From a virus: a DNA stretch of 55,719 bases. Below are positions 11,108-48,874 of this stretch, one piece after another. The stretch spans positions 1 to 55,719 of the IMG/VR virus record IMGVR_UViG_3300033141_003115, one strand, 5' to 3'. The position numbers and the translations under genes are program-made. The number at the start of each line of letters is the position of its first letter. Within the stretch, counting starts at the first letter, position 1. The notes beneath the pieces were generated by a model. That model saw nothing but the letters and a program-made list of their open reading frames with translations. It was not told the origin of the DNA and made no database searches.

Positions 11108-14100
11108 TCAATACACTCGTCTTACAGAATTCTCAACAGCTCTGGCAATTTTATCAATATCAGAATCTGGAATTCCTCCTTGCCCGTTCACATTTACTGT
11201 AACAGTTACTGACGCTGGAACTCCTGCTGGAGCTATAGCGGGCGTCATAGCTGATGCTGGCACAAAAGCGTATCCAAATTCACTTGGAGCATTGTATAAT
11301 GTAGCACGCATACGGGATAAGATATCTGTTAATGCTTCTAATGCTACTGTATTTCGTTCTAATGCACTTAAGTGATTCTGTATTGCTTCTGTTTCTTGCT
11401 CCTGTGATTGATTAAATAGATTAAATATCTGCATTAATCCACCAATGAATAATAATCCGACTCCAACCCAGCCTAAGCTACCTGCCACTGTTCCTATTAA
11501 AGTTTGTGAAGCTAAAGCAGTTTGTGCAGCAGCTTGAAGTTCCATCATCCGTGTTGCTGTATTGGAAATAATGTTAATTGCTTGTACGATTTTACTGGTA
11601 GCATCTTGCATGGACGGGAACGTATTACCTAATGTAGTAAGAAAGTCAGTAAGAGAATCAAGAAATCCAGTAAAAGCATTTCTAATAGCTTGTTGTTGTT
11701 CTTGTAACTCACGTTCGGCTTCATTTATCTGTTCTTTATTCCGTTGATATGCGTCTATAATAAATTGAGCAAACTCTTGATGCTCCATTAAATAACTTAT
11801 TATAGCTTGCTTATTTCCTTGTTCAAGTAATGTTCTTAAAGTAGCCCATTCAGTATCAAATCGGCTTCTCAGCTCATTCTGAAGTGCAGCTTGATCTGCA
11901 CCATATGTCTCAAGCCATGTTACTAAATCAATACCATATTCCTGAGACAAGCGAGCCAATTCTTGCTTGAATTTAGTAGTATCTTTACTATAACGTTCAC
12001 GTAAATCCTGTACTCTATCCATAATCTCAATAGCTAAAACCTCTATTGCAGTGTTTGCATATTCGCCAATTATATCTGATAATTTAGCTTCATCTGTTTC
12101 TGCAAATATCTGCTCTAATTCCTGTTTCATATCCTGAACATCAAATGCAACTGTACGTAATCTCGATATAAATCTATCAAAATCTAAATCTTTCAACATT
12201 TCTGCAATATCTTGACTGGCTTCAGCTAAGTCTCCAAAAATCGCTTGTAATAATTTCAAAAGAGGAATTACCCACGAACCCATTTCAGTTAATTGTGCTT
12301 CTGTAATCTCTCCTTCTCTGCTGAGAATTTCTAATAATTCTTCTACATGAGCACGTATTACTGCTACAAATTCTGCTTTAGATAGTTCTTTTATCTTCTT
12401 TGTTTGTGGGTCTAAAATTTCTACACCATATTTCTCGCTCAATGATTGTAATGCATCTATCCATTCCTGTGTACCTTCACCATATTTTTTCTGAATGTCT
12501 ATTATATCTCTGGATAACTGCACATACATAACATCTATTGCATCAGAAAGTGATTCCATAATGTAATCTATCTTAGAAGTTCGATCAGTCTGAAAATCAC
12601 GTAACCATTGCACAAAATCCATGTTAATTTGTCCAACTGTATTCTCAAGTGTACCAAATAATGTTTCTGGATCAAAAATTCCTCGGAAATTAATCCCTTC
12701 AATAGCATCTTGTGTTTCTGATACCCAATCCTTGATCTTTGTTCCATATACATCAAACAATACTAACAAGAACTTCTTCTGTTCGTCTGTAAGTTGACTT
12801 ACATCTCCAGTTTCTAATGCTTTTCTAATAGCTTCAAAATTATTCTGTATCCAAGTCTCTAATTCAGTGTACACATATCCACGTAATGTAGTAACAAAAG
12901 TTCCTAAGGAAATTACATCAAATTGACCTTCTGCAATAAACCTATCAATATATTTCTTAATCTGATTTAATGTATCCGTTGATAGAATACCACTGAAAGC
13001 AGTTCTCCATGCCTCCCAAACGTTGGTTAAAGTCTCACGTACATCTCCTTCTGTTAACTTACCTCTTACCTGCGCTAAACTAAGTAACTTATCTAAATCA
13101 GATGTATATTGATCTACTAATTGACTGACAACATCACTGGATGCACTTTGTACTACATCACTTAATTTAGTTATTATCAATGGAAGCTCACTTCGAGGAA
13201 TCTGAGATAATTGCTCTTGTACCAAATCGTCTATATCCATTTCATCCCGTACATCAGCAAACGCTCTTCGTAAATCATCTAAGAAATTATTCAATGTAGT
13301 ATATAACCCAGTCTTCAAAGCATTCTTCAGGTTTATGTATGCTTCTTCAAAACGTTCAATACGAAGAACATCTCGTAAACGTGTACCATACTCTATCAGG
13401 AATGCTTTTGTTTCCTGACTGAGATCATCTATACTCTTAATCTCTCCTTTTGCAAGTGCAAGTAGTTCAGTATAAACTTTATCTAATGTTTTTACTTCAA
13501 TGTCAAGAGCTTTATATTGTACTTGTGCCTGCTCTATCTCAGCTTTAATACGTTCACGATCAGAATCAGAAGCACTGGTTAATGCATTTTGTAAATCTTC
13601 TATATGCTGCGCTAAAGCATTCATTTCCTTTAATGTAGTAGTATAAGAAAGATTTATAGCATAAAGCAAGGATTCTATACGCTTCTGCGCTAAAGCAATT
13701 GCTTTTTGCCCCGACTCAGTAACAAGTCTCTCACTGAGAGTTGCTGTGGTTTCCTTAGTTATCGCCGTCTCAACAGTTTCAGTTATTTGATCCATTAAAT
13801 TCATATATCCTTGAGAAACACCAGATTTGAACCCGTTAATTAAATTAGTAATATCATTACCAAATTTTTCTATGATAAAGTCATATCCTTTCTGTAATGC
13901 TGTACGTAATAAATCTAAAGCATTACTTATAGCATTACTAATCTTCTCATAATTTTCTCTGATTTGTGTATAATCAACACTTCGAATTTCATCGGCTGTA
14001 TCCTCACTTTCACTTCGTACAAACTGTAAAAACTCCTCTATCATAGCAGCATACTCTTGAGCAACTGCAAGCTGATCTTCCTTTATAGCTTCTTCCATCT

Positions 14101-17100
14101 TGTCGAACCAATGTTGTAAAATCTTACCATAATCAGCTCGACGTTTCGATTCTGGGGGCAATAATCGTTCATATTCTTCTCTATAACGCTGAAGTTTGAC
14201 CTTTAATACGTCTAACGTATCTATACCAAAAGCCTCAGCTAAAGCACGTTTGCCTTCATCTGAAATACTTTTAGCAAGAGCTTCTAAATCTGCTTGAACC
14301 TGTTCTTTTGCTTGTTTCTTAATTATATTCTTCAACATTTCCTTTGCCTTGGGATCAACTTCAGCTAATTTCTGCAATTTAGCTACATCTAAATCTTTAT
14401 AAGAGGCTATCTCACCCCAAACAGCTTCCCATTCTTCTGGAGTGAATAGATTTCTAACTTCTTCTATAACTTTATCTGTAATATTCAATGGGATATTAAA
14501 TATTTCTTCAATGTTAAGTTTAATAGATTCTAAGTCTTGTAATTTCTGATCAACAGAATTTTGTAATTGCTTCTGCTTGTTCAACACATCATTCCAATTA
14601 TTTTTAGCTTCCCGTGCTCGTGGTAAAACATTATTAGATAAATGATCGCTAAACTCTTTTAGCTGGAACAATCGTTCTCTCGTGGAAACAATACTTTCTA
14701 ATCGAATATACTCATCTTGCAAAGCCTCAAGCTCTTGCTCAAAACTCTTCTTATCCTGCTCAGACATATCAGATAACATATCTCGAATTTCATTAAGCTG
14801 GCTATTAATATCTCTTTTAACAGAATCTATTTCTGTCGGAAGTTCTAATCCGTGCTCAGCATATACTTCTTGTAACGATTTCAAGAATTCTCTTCGCCAT
14901 ATCGGTTCTAAGAGCTCTTCCATTTCTTGTGCTACTGAAGCATCTTCTTGAGCTAATACTTTGGCTGTTTCTACAATATCTGTAACTACTATCTCATGCT
15001 TCTCAGCTAATTTGCGTATCCATTCTTTGAAATCTTCTCCATAAGTGTCTATTAAAGTTACTATATCCTGTGTAGTAAAACTTATCTGATCAAAACCTTG
15101 AGATAAATAATCTACCTCTATCTGTAATTGATTCCGTGTTTGTTCTAAACGATTTCTTATATCATTTAAGAGATCATTTTCCACATTATATATTATATCC
15201 AATATAGATGTAATTTTTATCAAAGATAATGCTGCGGCTGCAAAATTACCTCCTACTTTATTTGCTTCCGCCTCAATATCATCTAAACTTCTAAGTATCG
15301 CCATGGATAATACTTTGTTTTTCTCCATCAACGCTTCTGCACGTCGTCGTGCATCCTCAAGCTCTTTATCAAATTCTTCTCTGGACATGCCAGCAATTAA
15401 TTCAGCAAGAATATCTGTTCCACTTTCATGTAATACTTTAATAACATCACCTAATAAACGATTTATCGTAGGTTTTAATATATTACCTAATATAAAATCT
15501 ATAATATCTTGATTACCTTCTTGTACCTGTCTTCTAAGAGCACCTAATAACGTTTCATCAGGTTTGGCATAACCCTGTGCTTGCAAAACCTTTAACAAAT
15601 CTTCTTGAGTAGTACCTAATTCTTCTACAAATTCTTCTAAATCAAAACCAGTTTCTAATATCTGTTCAACAAATATCTGTGCAAAGTTAATCTGCTCATT
15701 TAATACATTCTGTACTTGATCTTGCCATCTTTGCCATGTATCTCTATATGCAGATGTGGTTTCTTCTGCTGATACTTTCCCTGTTGATCTTTGTAATGCG
15801 AAAGTAAGTAATTGCAAGAAACCTATAAAACCTTTAATACTCTTATCTAATTCTTCTCCTTGTATCTCACCCGCTTGAATCATACGCTGTAATTCATCAT
15901 ACATGGCTTTAGCATCATTTACATATTTTATTACTACTTCATTTCCTTCATTGTACAAATCTTCAAATTGATTTATAAAATCATCCATAGCTTTCTTAAG
16001 TTCATCTTGTGGAGTTAATCCTGCTTCTAACGCTAAACTTTGTAAAATATCTTCCTGTCCAAAATACTTTCGAATAAGGCTACCTAATAGCTTCTTTGAA
16101 GCCTCTACTGCTTTAGATGAATAATATACTCTCACTAAATCTTTGACTATACTTAATCCTTCTTCATATCCCTGCTGTAATCCAAGTGCAAGAGCTTTTA
16201 TATTATCTTCTTGAATTCCTAATAATTCCTTTAGTTGTTTCAATACCTCAGCAGATAAATTCTGCATGGCAAACTCTGCTATTGCTTGCCATTCTGTCGC
16301 TTCCACCGAAGGAATTTCTTCTATCTCAACAGAAATTCCTAATAATTCTTTCAACACATCATTAACCATCTGATTTTCTTGTTCTTCAACAGTACTACGC
16401 ATATCTTCTATAGCAGATAAAACAGCTTTTTGACCATTAACAAATTTATCTAATAAATCTTTAACAGCCTCTGGAGCCTTTAAGGCTGTCATGTACAATA
16501 CTGCACGAACAGTCTCGGCTCCACCTACTCTTATATGCAACATGTTTTTCATAATTTTAATAAAATCATCACCATATTGAATAAACATATTATCTATGCT
16601 CTTAACTAAGTCACCAAACTCTTGCAACCGTTTTTTATCTGTTTCAGATAACGTTTTATATGCTAAGTCTAACATTTTACTGATCTTGCTTTGTACATCT
16701 CCCCAAGCACCTTCAGCAATTGCCTTTTGTACATCAGCAACAGCTTTTTCTAAATCACCCAAAAGCTTAGTAACTTCGCTGCGTTTATCTGGGTCTGCAA
16801 TATCTTCTATTTGTTCTCGTACAGAATTTATAAATTTAGTCATAGGCTCTATAACAGCTTTATTAAATACATCATCAAATAACATGCCTGTGCTTTCTCT
16901 AAATGATGTTCCAAAATTCTGTTGAGCAAAACTTACCAGTGAAGTAATAGCCCTCTTAGCTGCAACTTCACTGGGTTCATATTTATAAGTCCCTATTGTA
17001 ACTTCGCCTAATTCTCCTATACTAATATCAAATATATCTTGAATATTTAATAGAAATCCTTCAAATATAGAACGCCATAACCGTTCACCAAACGCTCTTT

Positions 17101-20100
17101 CAACAATATTAATAGTGCCCTCAATAATACGACGTTTAATTTCCTCAGCTGACAATTCTGCTTGCTGCTCTAAATCCGTATCAAGAGCTATGCCCATACT
17201 CTCAGCTAAGCTGCGTAAAAATAGGGATATATCACCCGCCAACCCAATTTGTATTTTCGTAATCTTTTCATTAAGCTCATTAAGATTTCGTTCTGCAGTT
17301 TCTAACGTAGAATTAATTTGTGGATCAATCTTTCTAATTTCTTTGTATTGATTCTCAAACTTATCTCTTAATTCTGCTATTCGAGCACGAATTTCACTTA
17401 TTTTTCCTAAAGCATCCTCTACTCTCATATTTCGCACAGAATCTACTAAACCTTCAACAGATTGTTCAATATCATTAACTAATTCTTGATCACTTACCAA
17501 TAATTGCTTTACATGCTCATTAGTAGAACGACTTAAAGTATCTATTTGATCAACAAGTGCATGAACCTCAGGAAAATATTGTGTAGTCAATATTTCGTTT
17601 ACTTCTTCTGCAGTATTATTAGCCATAACTACCGTGTCAGTAGATTGCGATGCTACGGCTTCTATATTACGAGCTGCTTCTGTCATAACAGCTTGGGTGT
17701 CTTTTATCTCATATCCTTGTTGTCTTAATTCCTCTACATAACTTTCCATTTTAACACTTAAAGGCTGCCAGTCAGCCCGTGCAGAAACCCTGGGAGCTTT
17801 TAACATACCCGCACGACGTAACCCCGCTGTCACCTCTTCGCGAGATAATCTAATAGCATTTATATCATCTATTACCTTAGTTTTTTCCTCTCTATATATA
17901 TCTATTAACTTTTGTGTTTCATCATGCTCTTCTTCTAAAACTTTATAAGCTACCAAAGTGGCTGCTTCAACCACACTAAGTTCTTTGCCCACTTTCGCAC
18001 GAATTTGCTCAATATTTGTTACTCTTTCCATAAAAGAATTATAAACTGCACCAAATGCTTCATCTAACTGCTCCTGTGTTTTATCTCCTAAAATTGATGC
18101 TAATTTTGTTATAGCATAAATAGCTCCAGCACCAAGTAATGCCCACGGAAAAGCTCTACCTATAACTGATACTAATATTGGAAATAACTGTGTTCCAACA
18201 CTTCGACTTATTAAAGCACCTATTTGTCGAATAAAAGTAGTAGCTGTAACAGCAAGAGCTAATTCTACAAATATCATAACAGTTCTATGTTTCTGCATCC
18301 ATTCTTGAAATTCTCCTGGAATAAGTCTAAGTATTATATCTGTAGCAAGAAAAGCTGCTGTCCCCGCTTTAATTCCAAACCCTATTTTCTGTAATAACTG
18401 CATCAATGCGGGACTTTGTCCAGCAGCACTTGCAGCACGAGTAATTGTACTTATTAATTGACCACCTAATAACAACTTAATAGCGCTGAATACAAATTTT
18501 AATTCAGCTATCAGTAATACAAAATCCCAACCACGTAAAATGCGTAGAACATTTTCAAGAGCCAGCTCTAACACAGTTAATATAAATTCAGAAACACCTG
18601 CTGCATTGAATTTATATTTGCCTTCAGGAGTCTTTATATATAAACCTAATATAACTCCAAATTCTAATAATAAATCTGGCAGGGTCATGCGTCCTTCAAC
18701 ACCAAAAATACCAGAAAACATTTCCATTATACTATCATAAACCATGACAAGCATTTTGCGTACAAAATCAGTTATAGTACCTTCAAAATCTTCTAAACCA
18801 AATAACGATATTACTGCATCCTTTATTACATTTGCAATTGCTCTTAAAATATTACCAAATTTTCGAGCAAGAATTGGAATTGTTATAGTATCTATACCCT
18901 GTATAAATCCCATCAAGTTATTATAAAAATCTAATATAGCATCACGTAAACGTTGTATAGAAGGTACTTGAGCAAACAAACCTAATATAGCGTTAGTTAT
19001 ATTCATAAATATTGTAGGTATTAATTCCAATTTCCCTTGTGTAAAAGCATCAACAAATTGCTGTATACCTATAGCAGCAATACGTACGGCTTCTCCAAGT
19101 AACGGAAACCGTTCACTAAATGCCTCAAAAAATTCAGTACCCTGCTGAGCTTGATAAATCAATACTGCAAATGCACTACTAAGGAGTCCAAACGGAGTAA
19201 GTAATCCTCGAACAACACCTGCAACTAAGGCCAATACTGCAAACGAACCATAAAACAGAGATGCAAACTTAGCAAAGTTAGATAATAAACTATCATATTT
19301 TTTAATAATCATACTACCTGCATTCAACAACGATATTCCTATTTCAGTAAAACTCTGTATAGCATCAGATGCCGCCTCTACAACAGAAATTTTAAATGCT
19401 TCCCAAGATGCTTTCAATCTTTCCATAGCAAAACTAACTGCTTTTATCTGTTTTTCATACGCACTCTCCATCGCTCCACCAACTTCTTGCTCATATTGCT
19501 GAGCTATTCGAGAGAATTCAGCAAAGTTATTAACCATAGCACGAAGTACACGAATCGCACGCATATCAAAACCTACTGCTGTAAGCATGCGCTCCTGTGC
19601 TTCTGTACTAAATCCAGCTAAACTATTAGTTAAATCTTGTATAACAGGAAGTAACCCACGAAATTCGCCACGAAGATCATACGCTCGTACACCTAACTCT
19701 TCTAATGCTCGAATTGTATCTGGATTAGCCAGTTCTTCATAAAGACGAGCCAAACCAAAAGCACCCATTTCAGGCGAAAGACCTACACGAGTCAAGAACG
19801 CTATAGAATAGTAAGTCTCTTTAAGCCGCTCCATCTGACCGCCTAAGGATGCAGCAGACTGATAAACACGACCCATAACCGATACTAACTCTTCATATCG
19901 AATAATACCTATCTTAACAGCTTCAAATTGAGCATCGAATATTTCAGTAAGATTTTTTGCACTCAATCCAAAAGCATACATAGCTTGAATTCCACCTTTT
20001 AATGCTATATCAACTGATGTGACACCAGCACGAGCAGCTTTCATGGACTGCTCTACAGTATAAAACATATCCGATACAGCAATACCTGCAGATAAAGCGT

Positions 20101-20860
20101 CGTAAAATGCTTTTGCTACATTAAGAGGAGTTTCACCAAATTTTACAGCTAACGATAATCCAGCTTGATTCATTATATCTACAATGTTAGTTAACTCATT
20201 GCCCATAACTGTAAGACGATAACTTGTTTCTTCCATTTCATCATTAATAAGAGACCATGCATTGTAAATTTCTCGATTATAATCCATAAAAGAATCTAAC
20301 AAAGGACCAAATACTTTTAACATAAGCCATATGTTCATAAATTGCATAAATAACTGATACTGAAACCACTCAAACGCTTTGAAAACTTTTTCTAATCCAC
20401 TGCGCAAAAAATCAAGCGCCTTTGTAACTAATGCAAAAGGCGCTTTTACCACAGTCCAAAGACCCTTAAATAATGTATTTATAGTGACCCTAATTCGACC
20501 AATAGTAACAATAATATCACTAAGAACAGATAGTAACCCCTTAAATCCACCAACTACTAAATCTATAGGATTGGCTAACTTAATTATTTCAATAGTTGCT
20601 ATTTTAACTAAATCCAAAAACGATCTTACAGAAAGACCTGCTCTACGCCATTGCTGTGTTGTCCCCTCTGTAGCTTTATTTAACCCTTGAATCGTAGTAG
20701 CAGCCTTTTCAATCGATTTATTAATCTCACCAAAAGCAGTATTAAATGTCTCAGTAATAGCTGCAGCAGCTTGCTGAGCTTCCCGAACTATATTAACAAA
20801 ATCCGATATTACTCGCTCATATTCGAGAACTATTTGAGCAGTTAGTTCATTCTGTTCCAA
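11108..20860 (-). CDS. Giant tape measure protein, about 3250 aa
   Basis: This is the largest gene of the window. Two TTG codons could start it; the one at 20860 sits 7 bases after AAGGAGG, whereas the one at 20866 is only one base away, so I choose 20860. Residues about 227-480 match the style of the TP901-type tape measure core domain (FGETPLNVAKAFYDALSAG, AAASLGGQ-like and VGFDMRAIRVLRAM segments). Hydrophobic stretches lie near residues 525-570, 885-925 and 3117-3148. The remainder is long charged helix and coiled coil. The protein sets tail length during tube assembly and is usually ejected with the DNA. At about 0.15 nm per residue it predicts a tail near 490 nm. Confidence 0.95.
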   Translation of the reverse strand: MEQNELTAQIVLEYERVISDFVNIVREAQQAAAAITETFNTAFGEINKSIEKAATTIQGLNKATEGTTQQWRRAGLSVRSFLDLVKIATIEIIKLANPIDLVVGGFKGLLSVLSDIIVTIGRIRVTINTLFKGLWTVVKAPFALVTKALDFLRSGLEKVFKAFEWFQYQLFMQFMNIWLMLKVFGPLLDSFMDYNREIYNAWSLINDEMEETSYRLTVMGNELTNIVDIMNQAGLSLAVKFGETPLNVAKAFYDALSAGIAVSDMFYTVEQSMKAARAGVTSVDIALKGGIQAMYAFGLSAKNLTEIFDAQFEAVKIGIIRYEELVSVMGRVYQSAASLGGQMERLKETYYSIAFLTRVGLSPEMGAFGLARLYEELANPDTIRALEELGVRAYDLRGEFRGLLPVIQDLTNSLAGFSTEAQERMLTAVGFDMRAIRVLRAMVNNFAEFSRIAQQYEQEVGGAMESAYEKQIKAVSFAMERLKASWEAFKISVVEAASDAIQSFTEIGISLLNAGSMIIKKYDSLLSNFAKFASLFYGSFAVLALVAGVVRGLLTPFGLLSSAFAVLIYQAQQGTEFFEAFSERFPLLGEAVRIAAIGIQQFVDAFTQGKLELIPTIFMNITNAILGLFAQVPSIQRLRDAILDFYNNLMGFIQGIDTITIPILARKFGNILRAIANVIKDAVISLFGLEDFEGTITDFVRKMLVMVYDSIMEMFSGIFGVEGRMTLPDLLLEFGVILGLYIKTPEGKYKFNAAGVSEFILTVLELALENVLRILRGWDFVLLIAELKFVFSAIKLLLGGQLISTITRAASAAGQSPALMQLLQKIGFGIKAGTAAFLATDIILRLIPGEFQEWMQKHRTVMIFVELALAVTATTFIRQIGALISRSVGTQLFPILVSVIGRAFPWALLGAGAIYAITKLASILGDKTQEQLDEAFGAVYNSFMERVTNIEQIRAKVGKELSVVEAATLVAYKVLEEEHDETQKLIDIYREEKTKVIDDINAIRLSREEVTAGLRRAGMLKAPRVSARADWQPLSVKMESYVEELRQQGYEIKDTQAVMTEAARNIEAVASQSTDTVVMANNTAEEVNEILTTQYFPEVHALVDQIDTLSRSTNEHVKQLLVSDQELVNDIEQSVEGLVDSVRNMRVEDALGKISEIRARIAELRDKFENQYKEIRKIDPQINSTLETAERNLNELNEKITKIQIGLAGDISLFLRSLAESMGIALDTDLEQQAELSAEEIKRRIIEGTINIVERAFGERLWRSIFEGFLLNIQDIFDISIGELGEVTIGTYKYEPSEVAAKRAITSLVSFAQQNFGTSFRESTGMLFDDVFNKAVIEPMTKFINSVREQIEDIADPDKRSEVTKLLGDLEKAVADVQKAIAEGAWGDVQSKISKMLDLAYKTLSETDKKRLQEFGDLVKSIDNMFIQYGDDFIKIMKNMLHIRVGGAETVRAVLYMTALKAPEAVKDLLDKFVNGQKAVLSAIEDMRSTVEEQENQMVNDVLKELLGISVEIEEIPSVEATEWQAIAEFAMQNLSAEVLKQLKELLGIQEDNIKALALGLQQGYEEGLSIVKDLVRVYYSSKAVEASKKLLGSLIRKYFGQEDILQSLALEAGLTPQDELKKAMDDFINQFEDLYNEGNEVVIKYVNDAKAMYDELQRMIQAGEIQGEELDKSIKGFIGFLQLLTFALQRSTGKVSAEETTSAYRDTWQRWQDQVQNVLNEQINFAQIFVEQILETGFDLEEFVEELGTTQEDLLKVLQAQGYAKPDETLLGALRRQVQEGNQDIIDFILGNILKPTINRLLGDVIKVLHESGTDILAELIAGMSREEFDKELEDARRRAEALMEKNKVLSMAILRSLDDIEAEANKVGGNFAAAALSLIKITSILDIIYNVENDLLNDIRNRLEQTRNQLQIEVDYLSQGFDQISFTTQDIVTLIDTYGEDFKEWIRKLAEKHEIVVTDIVETAKVLAQEDASVAQEMEELLEPIWRREFLKSLQEVYAEHGLELPTEIDSVKRDINSQLNEIRDMLSDMSEQDKKSFEQELEALQDEYIRLESIVSTRERLFQLKEFSDHLSNNVLPRAREAKNNWNDVLNKQKQLQNSVDQKLQDLESIKLNIEEIFNIPLNITDKVIEEVRNLFTPEEWEAVWGEIASYKDLDVAKLQKLAEVDPKAKEMLKNIIKKQAKEQVQADLEALAKSISDEGKRALAEAFGIDTLDVLKVKLQRYREEYERLLPPESKRRADYGKILQHWFDKMEEAIKEDQLAVAQEYAAMIEEFLQFVRSESEDTADEIRSVDYTQIRENYEKISNAISNALDLLRTALQKGYDFIIEKFGNDITNLINGFKSGVSQGYMNLMDQITETVETAITKETTATLSERLVTESGQKAIALAQKRIESLLYAINLSYTTTLKEMNALAQHIEDLQNALTSASDSDRERIKAEIEQAQVQYKALDIEVKTLDKVYTELLALAKGEIKSIDDLSQETKAFLIEYGTRLRDVLRIERFEEAYINLKNALKTGLYTTLNNFLDDLRRAFADVRDEMDIDDLVQEQLSQIPRSELPLIITKLSDVVQSASSDVVSQLVDQYTSDLDKLLSLAQVRGKLTEGDVRETLTNVWEAWRTAFSGILSTDTLNQIKKYIDRFIAEGQFDVISLGTFVTTLRGYVYTELETWIQNNFEAIRKALETGDVSQLTDEQKKFLLVLFDVYGTKIKDWVSETQDAIEGINFRGIFDPETLFGTLENTVGQINMDFVQWLRDFQTDRTSKIDYIMESLSDAIDVMYVQLSRDIIDIQKKYGEGTQEWIDALQSLSEKYGVEILDPQTKKIKELSKAEFVAVIRAHVEELLEILSREGEITEAQLTEMGSWVIPLLKLLQAIFGDLAEASQDIAEMLKDLDFDRFISRLRTVAFDVQDMKQELEQIFAETDEAKLSDIIGEYANTAIEVLAIEIMDRVQDLRERYSKDTTKFKQELARLSQEYGIDLVTWLETYGADQAALQNELRSRFDTEWATLRTLLEQGNKQAIISYLMEHQEFAQFIIDAYQRNKEQINEAERELQEQQQAIRNAFTGFLDSLTDFLTTLGNTFPSMQDATSKIVQAINIISNTATRMMELQAAAQTALASQTLIGTVAGSLGWVGVGLLFIGGLMQIFNLFNQSQEQETEAIQNHLSALERNTVALEALTDILSRMRATLYNAPSEFGYAFVPASAMTPAIAPAGVPASVTVTVNVNGQGGIPDSDIDKIARAVENSVRRVY

Positions 20861-20872
20861 TTTCAAGCCTCC

Positions 20873-21631
20873 TTAAAGGCTGGATTTATTTTTCTTACGC
20901 TGCTCGTTTTCTAAGTGTTCACCATAAGCCTTCTTTACAGTCATTATTGCTCTTATTAATTTATAAGGCTGCTTAGCAAGACCTCCTTCATAAGGAAGAA
21001 CAGAAAAATGACCACCATTAGGTGAAATACACATATTCATTAATGAAATAAAAGGTTCAAAAAAAGCAAGCTCACGAACTTTTTCTACTACAAAAGTTTT
21101 ATCTTCATCTGGTAAATTTTCAAATTCTGAACGTAATTTTATACTTCTCTGATAACTTTCATATCTACCTTCAAAGAAATCATACGCTACACGTTCTAAA
21201 GCATTCATAAAATCTGAATATATAGGATTATCCACTAACCAATAAAAGTACAATACAAATGAACTTAATATCTGACCAACATCAGTAGGTAAAAGATCAA
21301 CTGAAATATTAAGCAAAGTATTACTCAATAAATCATAACCAAAATCAAGGAATTGCGTTACTTTTTCTAATTCTGTCTCTATTTCATTAAAAAGTTCCAT
21401 CTCAGACGAATACCATTGATATTCTGAATAAGTAATATCTGAACGTAATAATACATACTCATCAGATTTAGGTTTAAATGATAATCGAATCTTCTTCTTT
21501 TTATCTAAATACAAATATACTGGAATGGGTTTATCCGATAAAATGGCTTTCCTCAGAATATTTTCCCACTCGGAAATCTGAGGAAAGCCTAACTTTTGCC
21601 AGGTTTTTATGTGCTCGTTAGAAAAAGACAT
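20873..21631 (-). CDS. Probable second tail assembly chaperone-type protein, 252 aa
   Basis: The ATG at 21631 (MSFSNEH) follows GAGGGGTGGGG; an upstream ATG at 21667 lies inside a hairpin and lacks a ribosome site. The protein is mostly helical with a charged C-terminus. It lies between the gpG-like gene and the tape measure, where many siphoviruses encode the second chaperone, often joined to the first by a frameshift. Here a stop at 21692-21694 in this frame rules out a simple -1 fusion, so it should be made from its own start. Function is inferred from position only. Confidence 0.6.
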   Translation of the reverse strand: MSFSNEHIKTWQKLGFPQISEWENILRKAILSDKPIPVYLYLDKKKKIRLSFKPKSDEYVLLRSDITYSEYQWYSSEMELFNEIETELEKVTQFLDFGYDLLSNTLLNISVDLLPTDVGQILSSFVLYFYWLVDNPIYSDFMNALERVAYDFFEGRYESYQRSIKLRSEFENLPDEDKTFVVEKVRELAFFEPFISLMNMCISPNGGHFSVLPYEGGLAKQPYKLIRAIMTVKKAYGEHLENEQRKKNKSSL

Positions 21632-21648
21632 TTCCCCACCCCTCTCCC

Positions 21649-21703
21649 GCTGTGAGCATGTGCCCATCCGGGCACACCATCCACAATATAATTAACTCAC
21701 AGC
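21649..21703 (-). promoter_or_regulatory. Nested RNA stem-loops before the second chaperone ribosome site
   Basis: An outer stem (GCTGTGAG at 21649-21656 with CTCACAGC at 21696-21703) encloses an inner GC-rich hairpin (TGTGCCC at 21659-21665 with GGGCACA at 21670-21676, loop of 4). In the mRNA it ends directly before the GGGAGAGGGGTGGGG ribosome site of the 252-residue gene. There is no U-run, so it is not a classic terminator. It may tune translation or RNA processing between the two chaperone genes. Confidence 0.55.
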
Positions 21704-36064: not shown

Positions 36065-37018
36065 ATGACATATACTAACGAGATGGATAATATAATTAAA
36101 ACTCTTAAGCAACAGGGTTTAACCTATACAGAAATAGCTTCAGTTGTAAATAAACAGTTTGGAATGAGCAAATCTTCTGAAGCTATACGTAAGAGATATT
36201 ATAGAATTCGTTCACGTCCTGATCATGTATTTGTTGATGAAACACCAGAATATATAGCAGAAGATGTCATTTCAGTTGAAGATGATGTTTTCGTTTTAGG
36301 TGTTATATCTGATACTCATTTAGGCTCGAAATATCATGCTGAAGAAGAGCTGAAAGATTTTTATGAATTTATGCGAGATCATAAAGTTCAACATGTTCTT
36401 CATGCTGGTGATGTACTTGAAGGTGATGGTTGGTTATTTCGTGGTCAGCTTTACGATATATTGAGTATTGGTATTGATAATATTCTTGATTATGTAGTTG
36501 AAAATTATCCTACATATGAAGGCTTAGTACAGCATGTTATAAGTGGTCAGCATGATGAAATATTCACAAAACGTTATGGTTATAACATTTTGAATCAAGT
36601 ATCATTACGCCGCGATGATATTATTTATTATGGTTCATTTATGACATATTTAACATTACAACATAAGAATCAAGAAATACACATAGTTTTACAGCATGGA
36701 TCAAATAGTCTTACCACAGCTCATAGTTATCGATTACAGAAATATGTAGATGTTTCCAAATCTATGTTTGCTGATGGTTTCGATATGTTGATTCTTGGAC
36801 ATTATCATTCTATGGCGATATTACCAGAATACAAACGTGTTATCAGCATAATGCCTGGATGTTTTCAGCATCAGACAAAACTGTTCGCTGAGAAGGGTTT
36901 AGTTCCTGTTATAGGGGGTTTAATTTTGAAAATACATTTTACTGATAATGGGTGGCATGTCGAGTATATTACACGAACTTATCCTGTGAAAACAGTATAT
37001 ATGATAGAACGGGGATGA
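36065..37018 (+). CDS. HTH-metallophosphoesterase fusion, 317 aa
   Basis: Residues 1-50 form a helix-turn-helix (LKQQGLTYTEIASVVNKQFG, SEAIRKRYYRIRSR). Residues 77-317 carry the calcineurin-like motifs: SDTHLGS (82-88), AGDVLEGDG (114-122), GQHDE (161-165, where GNHDE is usual), LQHGS (209-213) and GHYHS (245-249). The metal-binding residues except the motif III Asn are present. The enzyme should hydrolyse phosphoesters; the HTH suggests it acts at DNA. It is separate from the SbcD-like gene downstream. The start ATG follows AAAAGGAGGCG. Confidence 0.75.
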   Translation: MTYTNEMDNIIKTLKQQGLTYTEIASVVNKQFGMSKSSEAIRKRYYRIRSRPDHVFVDETPEYIAEDVISVEDDVFVLGVISDTHLGSKYHAEEELKDFYEFMRDHKVQHVLHAGDVLEGDGWLFRGQLYDILSIGIDNILDYVVENYPTYEGLVQHVISGQHDEIFTKRYGYNILNQVSLRRDDIIYYGSFMTYLTLQHKNQEIHIVLQHGSNSLTTAHSYRLQKYVDVSKSMFADGFDMLILGHYHSMAILPEYKRVISIMPGCFQHQTKLFAEKGLVPVIGGLILKIHFTDNGWHVEYITRTYPVKTVYMIERG

Positions 37019-41268: not shown

Positions 41269-42303
41269 ATGAATAAATTCGTTGTAATTGGTGATTTACA
41301 TTTGCGTACAGAGTTTTTAGATAAGTTTGAACCTTTCTTTAATATGCTTTCTACTTTTGATTGTCCCCTGATCTTTTTAGGGGACATCTTTCATTTCAGA
41401 GGAGCTTTTTCAGGTAAATTTTTAGTAGATGTTAAGAGCTTGTTTGATAAACTTAATAATCCTGTAACGATAATAGCTGGAAATCATGATAGGGTATATA
41501 ATGAGCGCACAATATTAGAATTATTTCAAGCACCAAATATGCGAGTTGTGAATCGGTTACTTATAGAGCCTCCTTATGCTTATGTAGCTTTTACTTCAGA
41601 TAATAGCATTCTGGAAGATTTATTCAAGCACAAAGACGTTAAGGTAATATTCAGTCATTTACCTATTGATGGGCATCCTTTAGCACGTAATGCGAAATTT
41701 GCTCCTGAACTGTTCAAAAATTTCGAATTGATATTCAATGGACACTGGCATTCTCCCAAATGTCTTAATAATATTGTGTTTACTGGATCGATTTATCATG
41801 TAACTAAAGCAGAAATAGGTAATCGTACTATGATTTACATAGTGGAAAACAACCAAGTAAAATCACAAGATGTATTGGTCTTGCATCGTGTTCGTGTAGA
41901 AGAATTCATGAAGGAATATAATACACCAGATTATATTATTTACACGCGTAGCGCAGATATAGCACAGCAATACACCAATGCATATAATGTTATAGTAGAA
42001 ACAAACACAACAACTTCAGATGCTGATGTAAAAAGCACATTACCTATGTTATCTTTCTGGGATGAGGTAGAAACACAGCTCATTGATTATTTAGCTGAAC
42101 GAGAGCTATCATCCAAAGAAATCGATACAGCATTAGCTTTATTACCAGATGATATATTAGCACATTGGAATAAGCATTCATTAGTTACTGCTATTATAAC
42201 TGAATATGAGAACAAGCTAAAAGAGTTACAAAATAATATTTCATCATACGATTCTGCAATACAAGCTATTATTAAGGAAGGTGAATCTCGTGATACGCTT
42301 TGA
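41269..42303 (+). CDS. sbcD: SbcD/gp47-like nuclease subunit, 344 aa
   Basis: The ATG follows AGGAGGTATG. Phosphoesterase motifs are GDLHLR (8-13), LGDIFHFR (38-44 region), AGNHDR (70-75), FSHLP and NGHWHSPK (157-164). The C-terminal part is helical and binds the partner. With the SbcC-like protein it forms the Mre11/Rad50-type nuclease that resects DNA ends. It overlaps the next gene. Confidence 0.9.
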   Translation: MNKFVVIGDLHLRTEFLDKFEPFFNMLSTFDCPLIFLGDIFHFRGAFSGKFLVDVKSLFDKLNNPVTIIAGNHDRVYNERTILELFQAPNMRVVNRLLIEPPYAYVAFTSDNSILEDLFKHKDVKVIFSHLPIDGHPLARNAKFAPELFKNFELIFNGHWHSPKCLNNIVFTGSIYHVTKAEIGNRTMIYIVENNQVKSQDVLVLHRVRVEEFMKEYNTPDYIIYTRSADIAQQYTNAYNVIVETNTTTSDADVKSTLPMLSFWDEVETQLIDYLAERELSSKEIDTALALLPDDILAHWNKHSLVTAIITEYENKLKELQNNISSYDSAIQAIIKEGESRDTL

Positions 42304-44014
42304 ACATGTACAGTTAAAGAATTTTCTATGTTATACTAACGCAGAATTGGATTTAGCAAATCGGGGTATTGTTAGAGTAAATGGTAAAAATGGTGCTGGT
42401 AAAAGTGCTCTATTTGAAAGTATCTTGTGGGCGTTATTTGGTAGAACTCCTCGTGGATTAGATTCTAAAAACATAATAAAATATGGTACAGATAATGCTT
42501 CGGTAGAATTAAGTTTAACATATCAGAATCATAATTATGTTATTAAACGAGAAGTTACACCATCTAAGCACACACTGATCTATTACAAAGATGGAACAGA
42601 ACATACGTTTCCTTCCGTACGCGAGGCTCAAGATGCATTAAATCAAGAATTGGGTCAGATAAGTGAAAGTTTAATATTACAGACTTTTTATTTGAAGCAA
42701 TATGATCATGATACTTTTGTATACTTGACTGATTCTAAACAAAAAGATATCTTGGAAGACATTCTTGGCATGGCTATGTTTGATTATACATTCAAGCTTT
42801 TGAAAGATACACACGATCAGATGCAAAGTTTGATATTAAAACATGAGCAAGAATTATCTCGTATACACTCATTAATACAAAATGTTGAAAGTTATATCGC
42901 ATTATTAGACACACAGAAAAGCTCATTAAAACGATCTGCGCCTACAATGAAAGAAGCGGATGTTCGAGCTAAACTGGATTCTTTAAACACTAAGCTAACA
43001 GAATATCAGAATAAATTACAACAGATATTAGATCAAGAACGACAGTTAAATGGTATAATCAATAAATTAGTAGAAGAAGCTCAGAAAGTTAAATCAGTAG
43101 CATCTTCAGATACATTATACATATTAAAATTATATACTACTGCTATACAGACAAAACAGTGTCCTGTGTGTCAACAGCATATAACAGATGATATTGAGAA
43201 TCGCATGAAAGCATCTATTGATTATATAAGATCGCAGATATATTCACACAATGTAGATGAATTAAAGACTCAACTAAGAGATGTTCAATTAAAGCTATCA
43301 TCTTTACGTCAAGAAGAAGAAAAATTACGAAATCTTATTGGTATAACAGAACAGGAGATATTAAAATTAGAAGCAATTCGAAGGGAGGTGTCGTCTCATG
43401 TTTCAGAGCTGGAGCGATTGGTTCTTCGGATCGACAAGCAAAAAGAACAACTCAATACTCTTCGATCTCAATTGGTTCAGTTTAGAGAGCAAAGCAAAGC
43501 CTCGGATTTGGTTTCTCTGGTCGAAATGGTTAGGATTTTGATGGATGCATTTGGCTCACAAGGGATTAAGAATAACATTATTGATAAATATGTTGCAGTA
43601 TTGAACCAGCATTTGAATAATGTTTTACAGTATATTTTGCCTCATGTTACTGCACAGGTTAGCACATATAGATATACTAAGACAAATCAATTACGACGAA
43701 AATTAACATTTCAAGTATTTTATAATGATACTGAGACAACATTCAAAGCTTTGAGTGGTGGAGAGCGTAAACGATTAGAGATCGCTACAATCTTAGCATT
43801 ACAGAAAGTAGTAGAGATGTTAGGTCGATTTCAAAGTAATATAATCATATTTGATGAAATATTTGATCAATTAGATGCTTCGGGTATTGAAGCCATAGTA
43901 GAATATTTACGTACTTATAATGACAAAGAGAGCTTGTTCTTAATCTCGCATTCACCTTATATCTTTACTGTGGATGATATAATAGATATTGATGGGGGTG
44001 AAATTCATGAATAA
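42290..44014 (+). CDS. sbcC: SbcC/gp46-like ATPase subunit, 574 aa
   Basis: The GTG at 42290 is six bases after AAGGAAGGTG; a GTG at 42281 lies within it. Walker A is NGKNGAGKS (31-39), the zinc hook CPVC at 291-294 sits between coiled coils, the signature is LSGGERKR (488-495) and Walker B is IIIFDEIFDQLD. It is shorter than cellular SbcC, typical of phage gp46. Codons 370-417 also contain an embedded frame (43398-43541); there all nine leucines avoid TTA, although TTA is the common leucine codon elsewhere. Confidence 0.9.
   Translation: MIRFEHVQLKNFLCYTNAELDLANRGIVRVNGKNGAGKSALFESILWALFGRTPRGLDSKNIIKYGTDNASVELSLTYQNHNYVIKREVTPSKHTLIYYKDGTEHTFPSVREAQDALNQELGQISESLILQTFYLKQYDHDTFVYLTDSKQKDILEDILGMAMFDYTFKLLKDTHDQMQSLILKHEQELSRIHSLIQNVESYIALLDTQKSSLKRSAPTMKEADVRAKLDSLNTKLTEYQNKLQQILDQERQLNGIINKLVEEAQKVKSVASSDTLYILKLYTTAIQTKQCPVCQQHITDDIENRMKASIDYIRSQIYSHNVDELKTQLRDVQLKLSSLRQEEEKLRNLIGITEQEILKLEAIRREVSSHVSELERLVLRIDKQKEQLNTLRSQLVQFREQSKASDLVSLVEMVRILMDAFGSQGIKNNIIDKYVAVLNQHLNNVLQYILPHVTAQVSTYRYTKTNQLRRKLTFQVFYNDTETTFKALSGGERKRLEIATILALQKVVEMLGRFQSNIIIFDEIFDQLDASGIEAIVEYLRTYNDKESLFLISHSPYIFTVDDIIDIDGGEIHE
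43398..43541 (+). CDS. Embedded overlapping gene inside sbcC, 47 aa aromatic-rich peptide
   Basis: In the +1 frame of the SbcC gene an ATG at 43398 follows AAGGGAGGTG with a gap of 9 bases, a near-perfect ribosome site. The frame runs 47 codons to TGA at 43539-43541. The peptide begins MFQSWSDWFFGSTSKK, continues LFDLNWFSLES and ends WFLWSKWLGF. It has six Trp and seven Phe and is net positive. Over just this stretch the SbcC frame stops using TTA leucine and AT-ending codons, consistent with dual coding. I recognise no family. A membrane- or protein-binding inhibitor is possible, but function is unknown. Confidence 0.6.
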   Translation: MFQSWSDWFFGSTSKKNNSILFDLNWFSLESKAKPRIWFLWSKWLGF

Positions 44015-46516: not shown

Positions 46517-48874
46517 ATGCAATGTAAAGATTGTGAAATTTTGAAAACATTGAGTAATATACCTGAGAGTATAAAAATTATTCCTGCTGATATTGTGATA
46601 GTTGTACCTACATCTGAAAACTTAAAACATGTCGTTGCGCAAGCATTAGTACATCAATTGCGATTACATTATTCGGATAATGATAAGATACATTTAACGA
46701 GCTTATATAAATGTCCTGTTCAGCGTAAACTTACTAAAACACAGTTGCGAAAATGTCTGCCTATATTACGTAAAGAATTGGAGATATTGAAGCCTAAGTT
46801 CATACTTGTCTTTGGTGCAGATGCTGCGTCTGTGATTTTGCAAGATACAACAAAAGCTCGATTGTTTAATGTAGCTCATTATTCTTCTGAATTTGATGCA
46901 TATATTATACCTTTGTATACGTTAGATATGTATCAGGAAAATACAACTTTACGCGCAAACCTTCTGAAGAATATTATCCAAGTATTAAACTCTCCCACAG
47001 AAAAGCCTATGAATATTGAGTTGCTCATGGATGAGCAAGAAATCATAGATATGCTTACAGCATTAATTCATAGTACTGAAGATAAATTTGCATTTGATGT
47101 AGAAACTACTGATTTAGATATCTGGAAACCCGACGCTAAAATATTAACCTGTGCTATTGCATTTAATAATAAAGGGTATGCTTTCCCTATACAAGCCACT
47201 GTAAACGGAGCTTCTGTTATTGATAGTTCTAAAGTAATTTCAGTACTAAAACAACTTATGAGCACTAACAAGGTTAAGATTGGACATAATATAAAATTTG
47301 ATATGAACGCCTTAAAGCAGATTCTTGATATCGATGTAAGCATGCCCATTGCAGATACGATGATTATGCATTATACTATTAATGAAGAAACTCGAACACA
47401 CAGTCTTTCTGCATTGTTAGGACTTTTAGGTTTAGAAGATCATAAGCAATTTGATTTATCATTATTACAAAAAACATTACCTAACGCTTACTTATTGAAG
47501 CAGCTTTTGGAATATAATGCTAAAGATGCTTTAGCTACATTGTATTTACACGATTATTTATTGACAAAGATGGAGCCTCATAACAAATTAGTAACTAAGA
47601 TGCTTTATAATGTGACACATGTATTACATGACATAGAAGTACATGGATTTGCAGTAGATGTACAACGCTTACATAAAGTGAAAAATGAATTAGAACAAAC
47701 AATTTCAAATATTGAAGCTAAATTAAAATCTTATGATGTTATTGAAAAAGTTAAACAAGAACTTAATATTGATGATATAAATCTAAACTCTCCTCAACAA
47801 ATAGCTAAAATTTTTGAATTATTAAACCTACCTGTGATTCAAACGACTAAGACAGGGCAAATATCAACGGATAAGCAGACACTAACATATTTAGCTGAGA
47901 ATTATAATATAGAATTTGCGAAAGACTTACTGCAATATCGTGAATTAAATAAGATTATGCAGACATATGTTATTCCTTATTTGGAGAATGATATAGTAAA
48001 GAATGGACGTATCCATCCTACATATAATGTAACAGCTACAGTTACAGGAAGATTGAGTTGTTCTAATCCCAATCTTCAGCAGATTCCAAGAAATGCATTG
48101 ATAAAACAGATTTTTGTTCCAGATAATGATAATCATATACTTGTTAATATAGATTATAGTCAGGCTGAGCTCAGAGTTATGGCTATGTTATCTGGGGACG
48201 AAAAACTATCTAAAGCATATATTGAAGGTATTGATGTACACCGTCAAACTGCAGCTTTAGTATATAATAAACCTATTGATCAAGTTACAGATGAAGAACG
48301 TCAACTTGCGAAAATGGTTAATTTTGCTATAATCTATGGAAGTACACCTCAAGGATTAGCGAAACGGCTGAATCGGACTGAACAGGAGATGGTTCAATTT
48401 GTAAACACCTGGTTCAAAATCTATCCCGCGGTAAAAAGATTTGAGCATCAAGTTTTAATTACAGCACGCACACAGAAATATATTATGACTCCTTTTGGAC
48501 GAGTACGTCATCTTCCACAAATTGATTCGGATAATGCACAAATACGAGCACGTACTGAAAGGCAAGCAATTAATTACATCATTCAGAGTACAGCTGCTGA
48601 TTTTACGTTATTATCATTGATTCAGATACATAAATTATTAAAAGGAATGGATGCATATATTGTAAATACTGTACATGATTCTATAATGTTATCAATAAAT
48701 AGGAAGTTAGTATCAAATTTATTACCTCGTATTAAGTTGTTGATGGAGTCTTATGATTTTTCCTGGATGCGTGGAATTAGTCTAAAAGTAGATATATCAA
48801 TAGGTAAGAATTGGGGAGAATTAATAGAGTTAGACTCTTTAGATGATCTGGAAGGAGTGTTGAGTCAGCTATGA
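46517..48874 (+). CDS. Family A DNA polymerase with UDG-like Fe-S N-domain, 785 aa
   Basis: Residues 1-150 resemble a family 4 uracil-DNA glycosylase: the four cysteines C3, C6, C66 and C80 fit an iron-sulfur site, but the catalytic GExPG and HPS motifs are missing, so it is probably structural. The 3'-5' exonuclease has FDVETTD (193-199), GHNIKFDMN and YNAKDA (333-338). The polymerase has TVTGRLS, motif A DYSQAELR (546-553), motif B KMVNFAIIYG and motif C VHDSIML (Ser replaces the usual Glu). The gene follows GGAGGTG and overlaps the primase. Confidence 0.9.
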   Translation: MQCKDCEILKTLSNIPESIKIIPADIVIVVPTSENLKHVVAQALVHQLRLHYSDNDKIHLTSLYKCPVQRKLTKTQLRKCLPILRKELEILKPKFILVFGADAASVILQDTTKARLFNVAHYSSEFDAYIIPLYTLDMYQENTTLRANLLKNIIQVLNSPTEKPMNIELLMDEQEIIDMLTALIHSTEDKFAFDVETTDLDIWKPDAKILTCAIAFNNKGYAFPIQATVNGASVIDSSKVISVLKQLMSTNKVKIGHNIKFDMNALKQILDIDVSMPIADTMIMHYTINEETRTHSLSALLGLLGLEDHKQFDLSLLQKTLPNAYLLKQLLEYNAKDALATLYLHDYLLTKMEPHNKLVTKMLYNVTHVLHDIEVHGFAVDVQRLHKVKNELEQTISNIEAKLKSYDVIEKVKQELNIDDINLNSPQQIAKIFELLNLPVIQTTKTGQISTDKQTLTYLAENYNIEFAKDLLQYRELNKIMQTYVIPYLENDIVKNGRIHPTYNVTATVTGRLSCSNPNLQQIPRNALIKQIFVPDNDNHILVNIDYSQAELRVMAMLSGDEKLSKAYIEGIDVHRQTAALVYNKPIDQVTDEERQLAKMVNFAIIYGSTPQGLAKRLNRTEQEMVQFVNTWFKIYPAVKRFEHQVLITARTQKYIMTPFGRVRHLPQIDSDNAQIRARTERQAINYIIQSTAADFTLLSLIQIHKLLKGMDAYIVNTVHDSIMLSINRKLVSNLLPRIKLLMESYDFSWMRGISLKVDISIGKNWGELIELDSLDDLEGVLSQL

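Follow-up and report, generated by a model that had tools for sequence, protein, structure and literature searches.

The SbcC-like gene and its neighbourhood

The window, that is the whole 55,719-nt stretch that was analysed, has the same extent as the virus record and represents the 55.7-kb genome of a tailed phage that is so far unclassified. The gene of interest belongs to the SbcC-like family phrog_77 (E = 4e-77) and matches the Pfam domains SMC_N and AAA_23, both over the cut-off. Its start is placed at the GTG at 42290, which has a Shine-Dalgarno (SD) energy of -8.6, versus -2.3 at the start of the longest frame (42281). The protein carries a P-loop (Walker A), a CPVC zinc hook, the signature LSGGE and the Walker B motif DEIFD, and an SbcD-like nuclease gene (41269-42303) adjoins the gene; with Walker A/B, signature, zinc hook and nuclease partner all present, the gene is, by its sequence features, an SbcC/Rad50/gp46 ATPase.

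The neighbours, as assigned by PHROG and Pfam, include genes for UvsX-like and SbcD-like proteins, a RusA-like/PDDEXK nuclease, a DnaB-like helicase and a family A DNA polymerase. The polymerase gene (46517-48874, plus strand) encodes an N-terminal uracil-DNA-glycosylase-like domain (UDG, E = 6e-8), followed by 3'-5' exonuclease and PolA domains. A second calcineurin-like metallophosphoesterase is encoded at 36065-37018 (plus strand), in addition to the SbcD-like gene. On the minus strand, a tail tape-measure-like protein of 3,252 residues (11108-20866, PHROG tape-measure matches) takes ~17.5% of the 55.7-kb genome, thus the tail would be unusually long for the genome size. The 144-nt stretch with the highest G+C in the genome is at 21600-21684 (window from 21634, 0.514); it spans the start of the gene 20873-21667 (minus strand) and the gap to the next gene, and is probably an untranslated leader.

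The features of the overlap are listed below.

42290-44014, plus strand: SbcC/Rad50/gp46-like ATPase gene, the host gene of the overlap (PHROG, Pfam, motifs)
43379-43543, plus strand: tract of atypical SbcC codons (CTG, CTC, ATC, GAC, CGG, AGG, GCC, TCG, GTC; codon-usage scan)
43381-43390, plus strand: Shine-Dalgarno AAGGGAGGTG of the internal ORF, in the SbcC codons CGA AGG GAG GTG (sequence, duplex energy)
43398-43541, plus strand: internal ORF of 47 codons, ATG to TGA, in the +1 register of the SbcC gene (sequence; intact in the close relative)
43539-43543, plus strand: TGATG, formed by the TGA that closes the +1 ORF and an overlapping in-frame SbcC ATG at 43541-43543 (sequence; possible re-initiation point)

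The internal frame and its ribosome-binding site

The original prediction placed a hidden 47-codon gene at 43398-43541 in the +1 register of the SbcC gene, and these coordinates are exact. The product is a basic, Trp/Phe-rich peptide of 47 aa, MFQSWSDWFFGSTSKKNNSILFDLNWFSLESKAKPRIWFLWSKWLGF, whose six Trp and seven Phe had been counted correctly. The aromatic character held for Phe and not for Trp: seven Phe are above the expectation (mean ~3 among synonymous open versions, P = 0.003-0.012), and six Trp are near that for open +1 versions of the stretch (mean ~4, P ~0.1). Hydropathy and helical moment/amphipathicity are ordinary for the +1 frame of this SbcC stretch, and the AlphaFold model is an uninformative single helix (pLDDT 72, pTM 0.29). 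The peptide had been proposed to be a phage effector, which is speculation: no homologue was found in PHROG, Pfam, viral, phage or genome-contig searches (with a two-sequence alignment as query for the viral sequences), and no transmembrane segment was predicted (maximum Kyte-Doolittle mean ~0). GenBank matches of the peptide at E ~2 were taken as chance.

An almost perfect ribosome site with a 9-base gap had also been described, and it is present. The AAGGGAGGTG element ends 7 nt upstream of the ATG at 43398, or 9 nt if counted from GGAGG, and forms a duplex of -12.9 kcal/mol with the 16S tail; among the real starts of this phage, the median energy is -10.3 and the best decile -11.9. The site surpasses 90% of the real starts in strength and ranks first among those of 1,019 internal out-of-frame ATGs; the ORF is the only internal out-of-frame one of at least 30 codons with an SD ≤ -8. 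When the same SbcC residues were encoded by other synonymous codons, an SD this strong occurred in 0.77% of the versions (P = 0.0077).

For a genome-wide null, synonymous codons were permuted within all 49 genes in 2,000 replicates. An out-of-frame ORF of at least 40 codons with an SD ≤ -12.9 was found in 0 of the 2,000, and one with a looser SD ≤ -9 somewhere in the genome in 15.5% (P = 0.155). Out-of-frame ORFs of at least 40 codons are common (17 expected per genome by permutation, 22 observed), therefore the significance comes from the strength of the SD and not from length alone. Given the SbcC residues and the codon usage of the phage, the probability that the +1 register is open for 47 codons is 3.3e-4. 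By these calculations, the start, stop, open frame and ribosome site inside the SbcC gene together appear to lie beyond chance; as the tests overlap and were picked after the ORF was seen, the p-values must not be multiplied.

The main alternative is a chance frame, in which a piece of SbcC was acquired from a G+C-richer relative by recombination or arose by drift, the SD-like AGG GAG GTG is accidental, and a scarcity of NTA codons in the tract leaves the +1 frame open. We regard this as possible but rather unlikely. Local G+C rises from ~0.31 to 0.43, a level reached by 6.7% of the genome's 144-nt windows, and the probability of 47 open codons becomes ~0.01 once the G+C tilt of the local codon usage is taken into account; the ordinary Trp content, hydropathy and moment of the peptide, as well as the 15.5% of replicates with the looser SD, also fit an accident. 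Against it stand the failure of all 2,000 permutations to yield so strong an SD on such an ORF, the SbcC protein itself, in which neither an insertion nor a foreign domain was seen (two residues excepted), and the search for a donor sequence, in which none was found. The codon and substitution patterns described below also argue against a chance frame.

Codon usage and substitutions across the overlap

Of 15,142 windows in 49 genes, the one of 48 codons that begins at 43379, and so takes in the SD, scores lowest for codon usage (z = -4.9), and the scores that flank the tract within the SbcC gene are normal. The distortion sets in with the SD and tapers off where the frame ends, in agreement with the claim of the original prediction that it matches the ends of the frame; this coincidence of the atypical tract with the SD and the ORF is not expected of a chance frame. 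The segment of maximum surprise in SbcC is 43382-43522, with a permutation P of 0.0125 at the loosest setting and 0.08-0.25 at stricter ones. Conditioned on openness, the distortion exceeds that forced by an open +1 frame (P = 5e-4). The second-lowest window of the genome is at 21667, in a frame that begins MGTCSQRERGGEMSFS and appears to have an over-long (mis-called) start in the naive gene list, and the third-lowest is in the major capsid gene.

Avoidance of TTA had been put forward as a sign of dual coding. The counts are right: the nine Leu of SbcC codons 370-417 are encoded by TTG (four), CTG (two), CTT (two) and CTC (one) with zero TTA, versus 39 TTA among the 62 Leu codons in the remainder of the gene. 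As a separate argument it is partly circular, because TTA followed by A or G reads as TAA or TAG in the +1 register, as does any NTA codon before A or G as a stop, so that the avoidance largely restates the open frame. The codon usage of the +1 frame itself is unlike that of the phage's genes (LLR -6.8, under every real gene window), and young overprinted genes often differ in codon usage from their genome (PMC8227390).

The codon distortion alone could likewise reflect a non-coding constraint, i.e., an RNA structure, a DNA site or a promoter that constrains the codons and leaves the frame as a by-product. We consider such a nucleotide-level signal extremely unlikely. We discarded RNA structure, repeats and promoters as causes of the distortion, because the folding energy is ordinary (z = +0.57), the stretch is without direct or inverted repeats and promoter-like sites are no commoner than in shuffles; moreover, a signal of this kind does not predict changes at the third position of the +1 frame.

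Such changes were seen in the only close relative found, IMGVR_UViG_3300021591_000016 (loci L002/L085/L101), which has 98.6% DNA identity. At 1.4% divergence, its L002 locus keeps the SD unchanged along with the ATG, the open frame and the stop, and the peptide differs by one residue (I20T). There are 149 differences between the window and the relative across 10.2 kb. In the overlap, position 1 of SbcC codons is position 3 of +1 codons, and it holds three of the four changes in the ORF versus 18 of the 146 background coding changes (Fisher P = 0.009). Three of the four are silent in the +1 frame, and two of those three alter SbcC (E to K and I to V). With selection on SbcC only and background rates, the probability of at least three of four changes being silent in +1 is 0.009, a figure that rests on four changes in one relative.

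The log-likelihoods of the four changes are -20.6 for constraint on SbcC only, -17.6 on +1 only, -18.3 on both and -19.0 for an unconstrained 'flat' model, which is just 1.4 log units below the +1 model. The substitutions, four changes only, are thus suggestive of sparing the +1 peptide rather than SbcC, a pattern that a chance frame would give with a probability of ~0.01. Suppressed synonymous change in SbcC was not seen, with 2 observed versus ~1.9 expected at a divergence of 1.4% that affords no power, and the total number of changes in the ORF was 4 versus 2.1 expected in this one relative.

Distribution, candidate expression and comparison with known systems

Searches for further relatives gave distant genes. 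The gene had no match by blastn against GenBank phages, and tblastn against the same phages gave only SbcC genes with ~25% identity. Apart from the close relative, IMG/VR scans with SbcC, an SbcC alignment, DnaB, TerL, a peptide alignment and a DNA pattern for DEIFDQLD as queries returned distant genes, and no relative was present among genome contigs; SbcC relatives of intermediate divergence were found in none of these three collections. Among 83 gp46/SbcC genes (81 of them at ~25% identity), a comparable internal SD and frame at the same place is absent except from the window and L002, which have the strongest internal SD-plus-start among the matches listed. The other family genes lack the site and frame, so the internal gene, if real, is lineage-restricted in these collections. 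Literature searches found no published report of a gene inside gp46/sbcC.

With moderate confidence, we favour the interpretation that the ORF is a real, young and lineage-restricted overprinted gene, with an internal ribosome site of its own from which it is probably translated. The SD, the codon distortion and the relative's substitutions uphold the dual coding of the original prediction, while the partly circular TTA argument and the ordinary Trp content and hydrophobicity add little to it, and our confidence is held back because there is one close relative only. From the SD, ATG, open frame, stop, codon break and substitution pattern, all read in the DNA, we infer translation, selection and a function.

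Ribosomes would enter the sbcCD transcript internally at AAGGGAGGTG, begin at the ATG at 43398 out of the SbcC frame, and produce a short basic aromatic peptide that ends at the TGA at 43541. Point changes may have created the frame in a coiled-coil part of SbcC that tolerates sequence variation, directly upstream of the C-terminal ATPase lobe, and selection may now hold the frame open, which would explain both the distorted SbcC codons and the peptide-sparing substitutions. An accessory role, as a host-/membrane-directed or replication-associated microprotein, is perhaps the likeliest, because the ORF sits within a recombination/replication operon.

The position of the stop codon allows for another reading, in which the frame is a coupling device: its translation would bring ribosomes to the TGATG, and re-initiation at the ATG at 43541 would yield the 157-residue C-terminal ATPase lobe of SbcC, with the peptide perhaps secondary. 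The overlap of the stop with the in-frame ATG is exact and is kept in L002, the Met directly precedes the GIKNNIIDKY segment, with which the C-terminal lobe opens in the alignment of the family, and short stop/start overlaps are common in this phage. Endolysins offer known cases in which a single phage gene also yields an in-frame internal product (PMC9430671, PMC7098653). However, the SD of the ATG at 43541 is weak (-4.0, with 10% of in-frame internal ATGs as good), a TGA formed out of TTG|ATG is not rare by chance, and coupling alone needs neither a 47-codon frame nor a codon pattern along it, so we judge this reading very unlikely. It is highly improbable that sbcC gives three products, namely full SbcC, the 47-residue microprotein and a free C-terminal ATPase lobe made by re-initiation at the TGATG; if it did, the microprotein frame would also set the dose of the SbcC fragment.

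Should the overprinted gene be translated, core recombination genes of mid-sized tailed phages would be shown to harbour overprinted microproteins, and a local break in codon usage together with an internal Shine-Dalgarno of unusual strength could flag embedded genes from one genome. Frames that are wholly embedded on the same strand are not called by annotation programs.

The enclosing gene belongs to the SbcC/Rad50/gp46 family (phrog_77, SMC_N/AAA_23) by its P-loop, CPVC hook, LSGGE, DEIFD and adjacent SbcD-like gene, and differs from the family members examined (83 genes) in the internal SD and frame, which only the window and its close relative have. As in the two-polypeptide endolysins (PMC9430671, PMC7098653), there is an internal ribosome site in a phage gene, a likeness that recalls re-initiation at the ATG at 43541; unlike in those endolysins, the strong site here would drive an out-of-frame ORF, and an in-frame SbcC fragment is merely possible.

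The closest parallel in arrangement is an overprinted out-of-frame phage gene such as that for protein E within gene D of phiX174 (PMC8227390), where, as here, a short accessory frame with its own ribosome site lies wholly within an essential-type gene. Unlike E, the candidate ORF is known from sequence alone and from a single lineage, and has no predicted E-type transmembrane segment; unlike gene D, the enclosing gene encodes a recombination ATPase and belongs to a tailed phage with a genome of 55.7 kb. Like overprinted phage genes of the phiX174 E type, the ORF is without homologues, encodes an aromatic product and has atypical codon usage, and, if real, it fairly probably belongs with the known overprinted phage microgenes.
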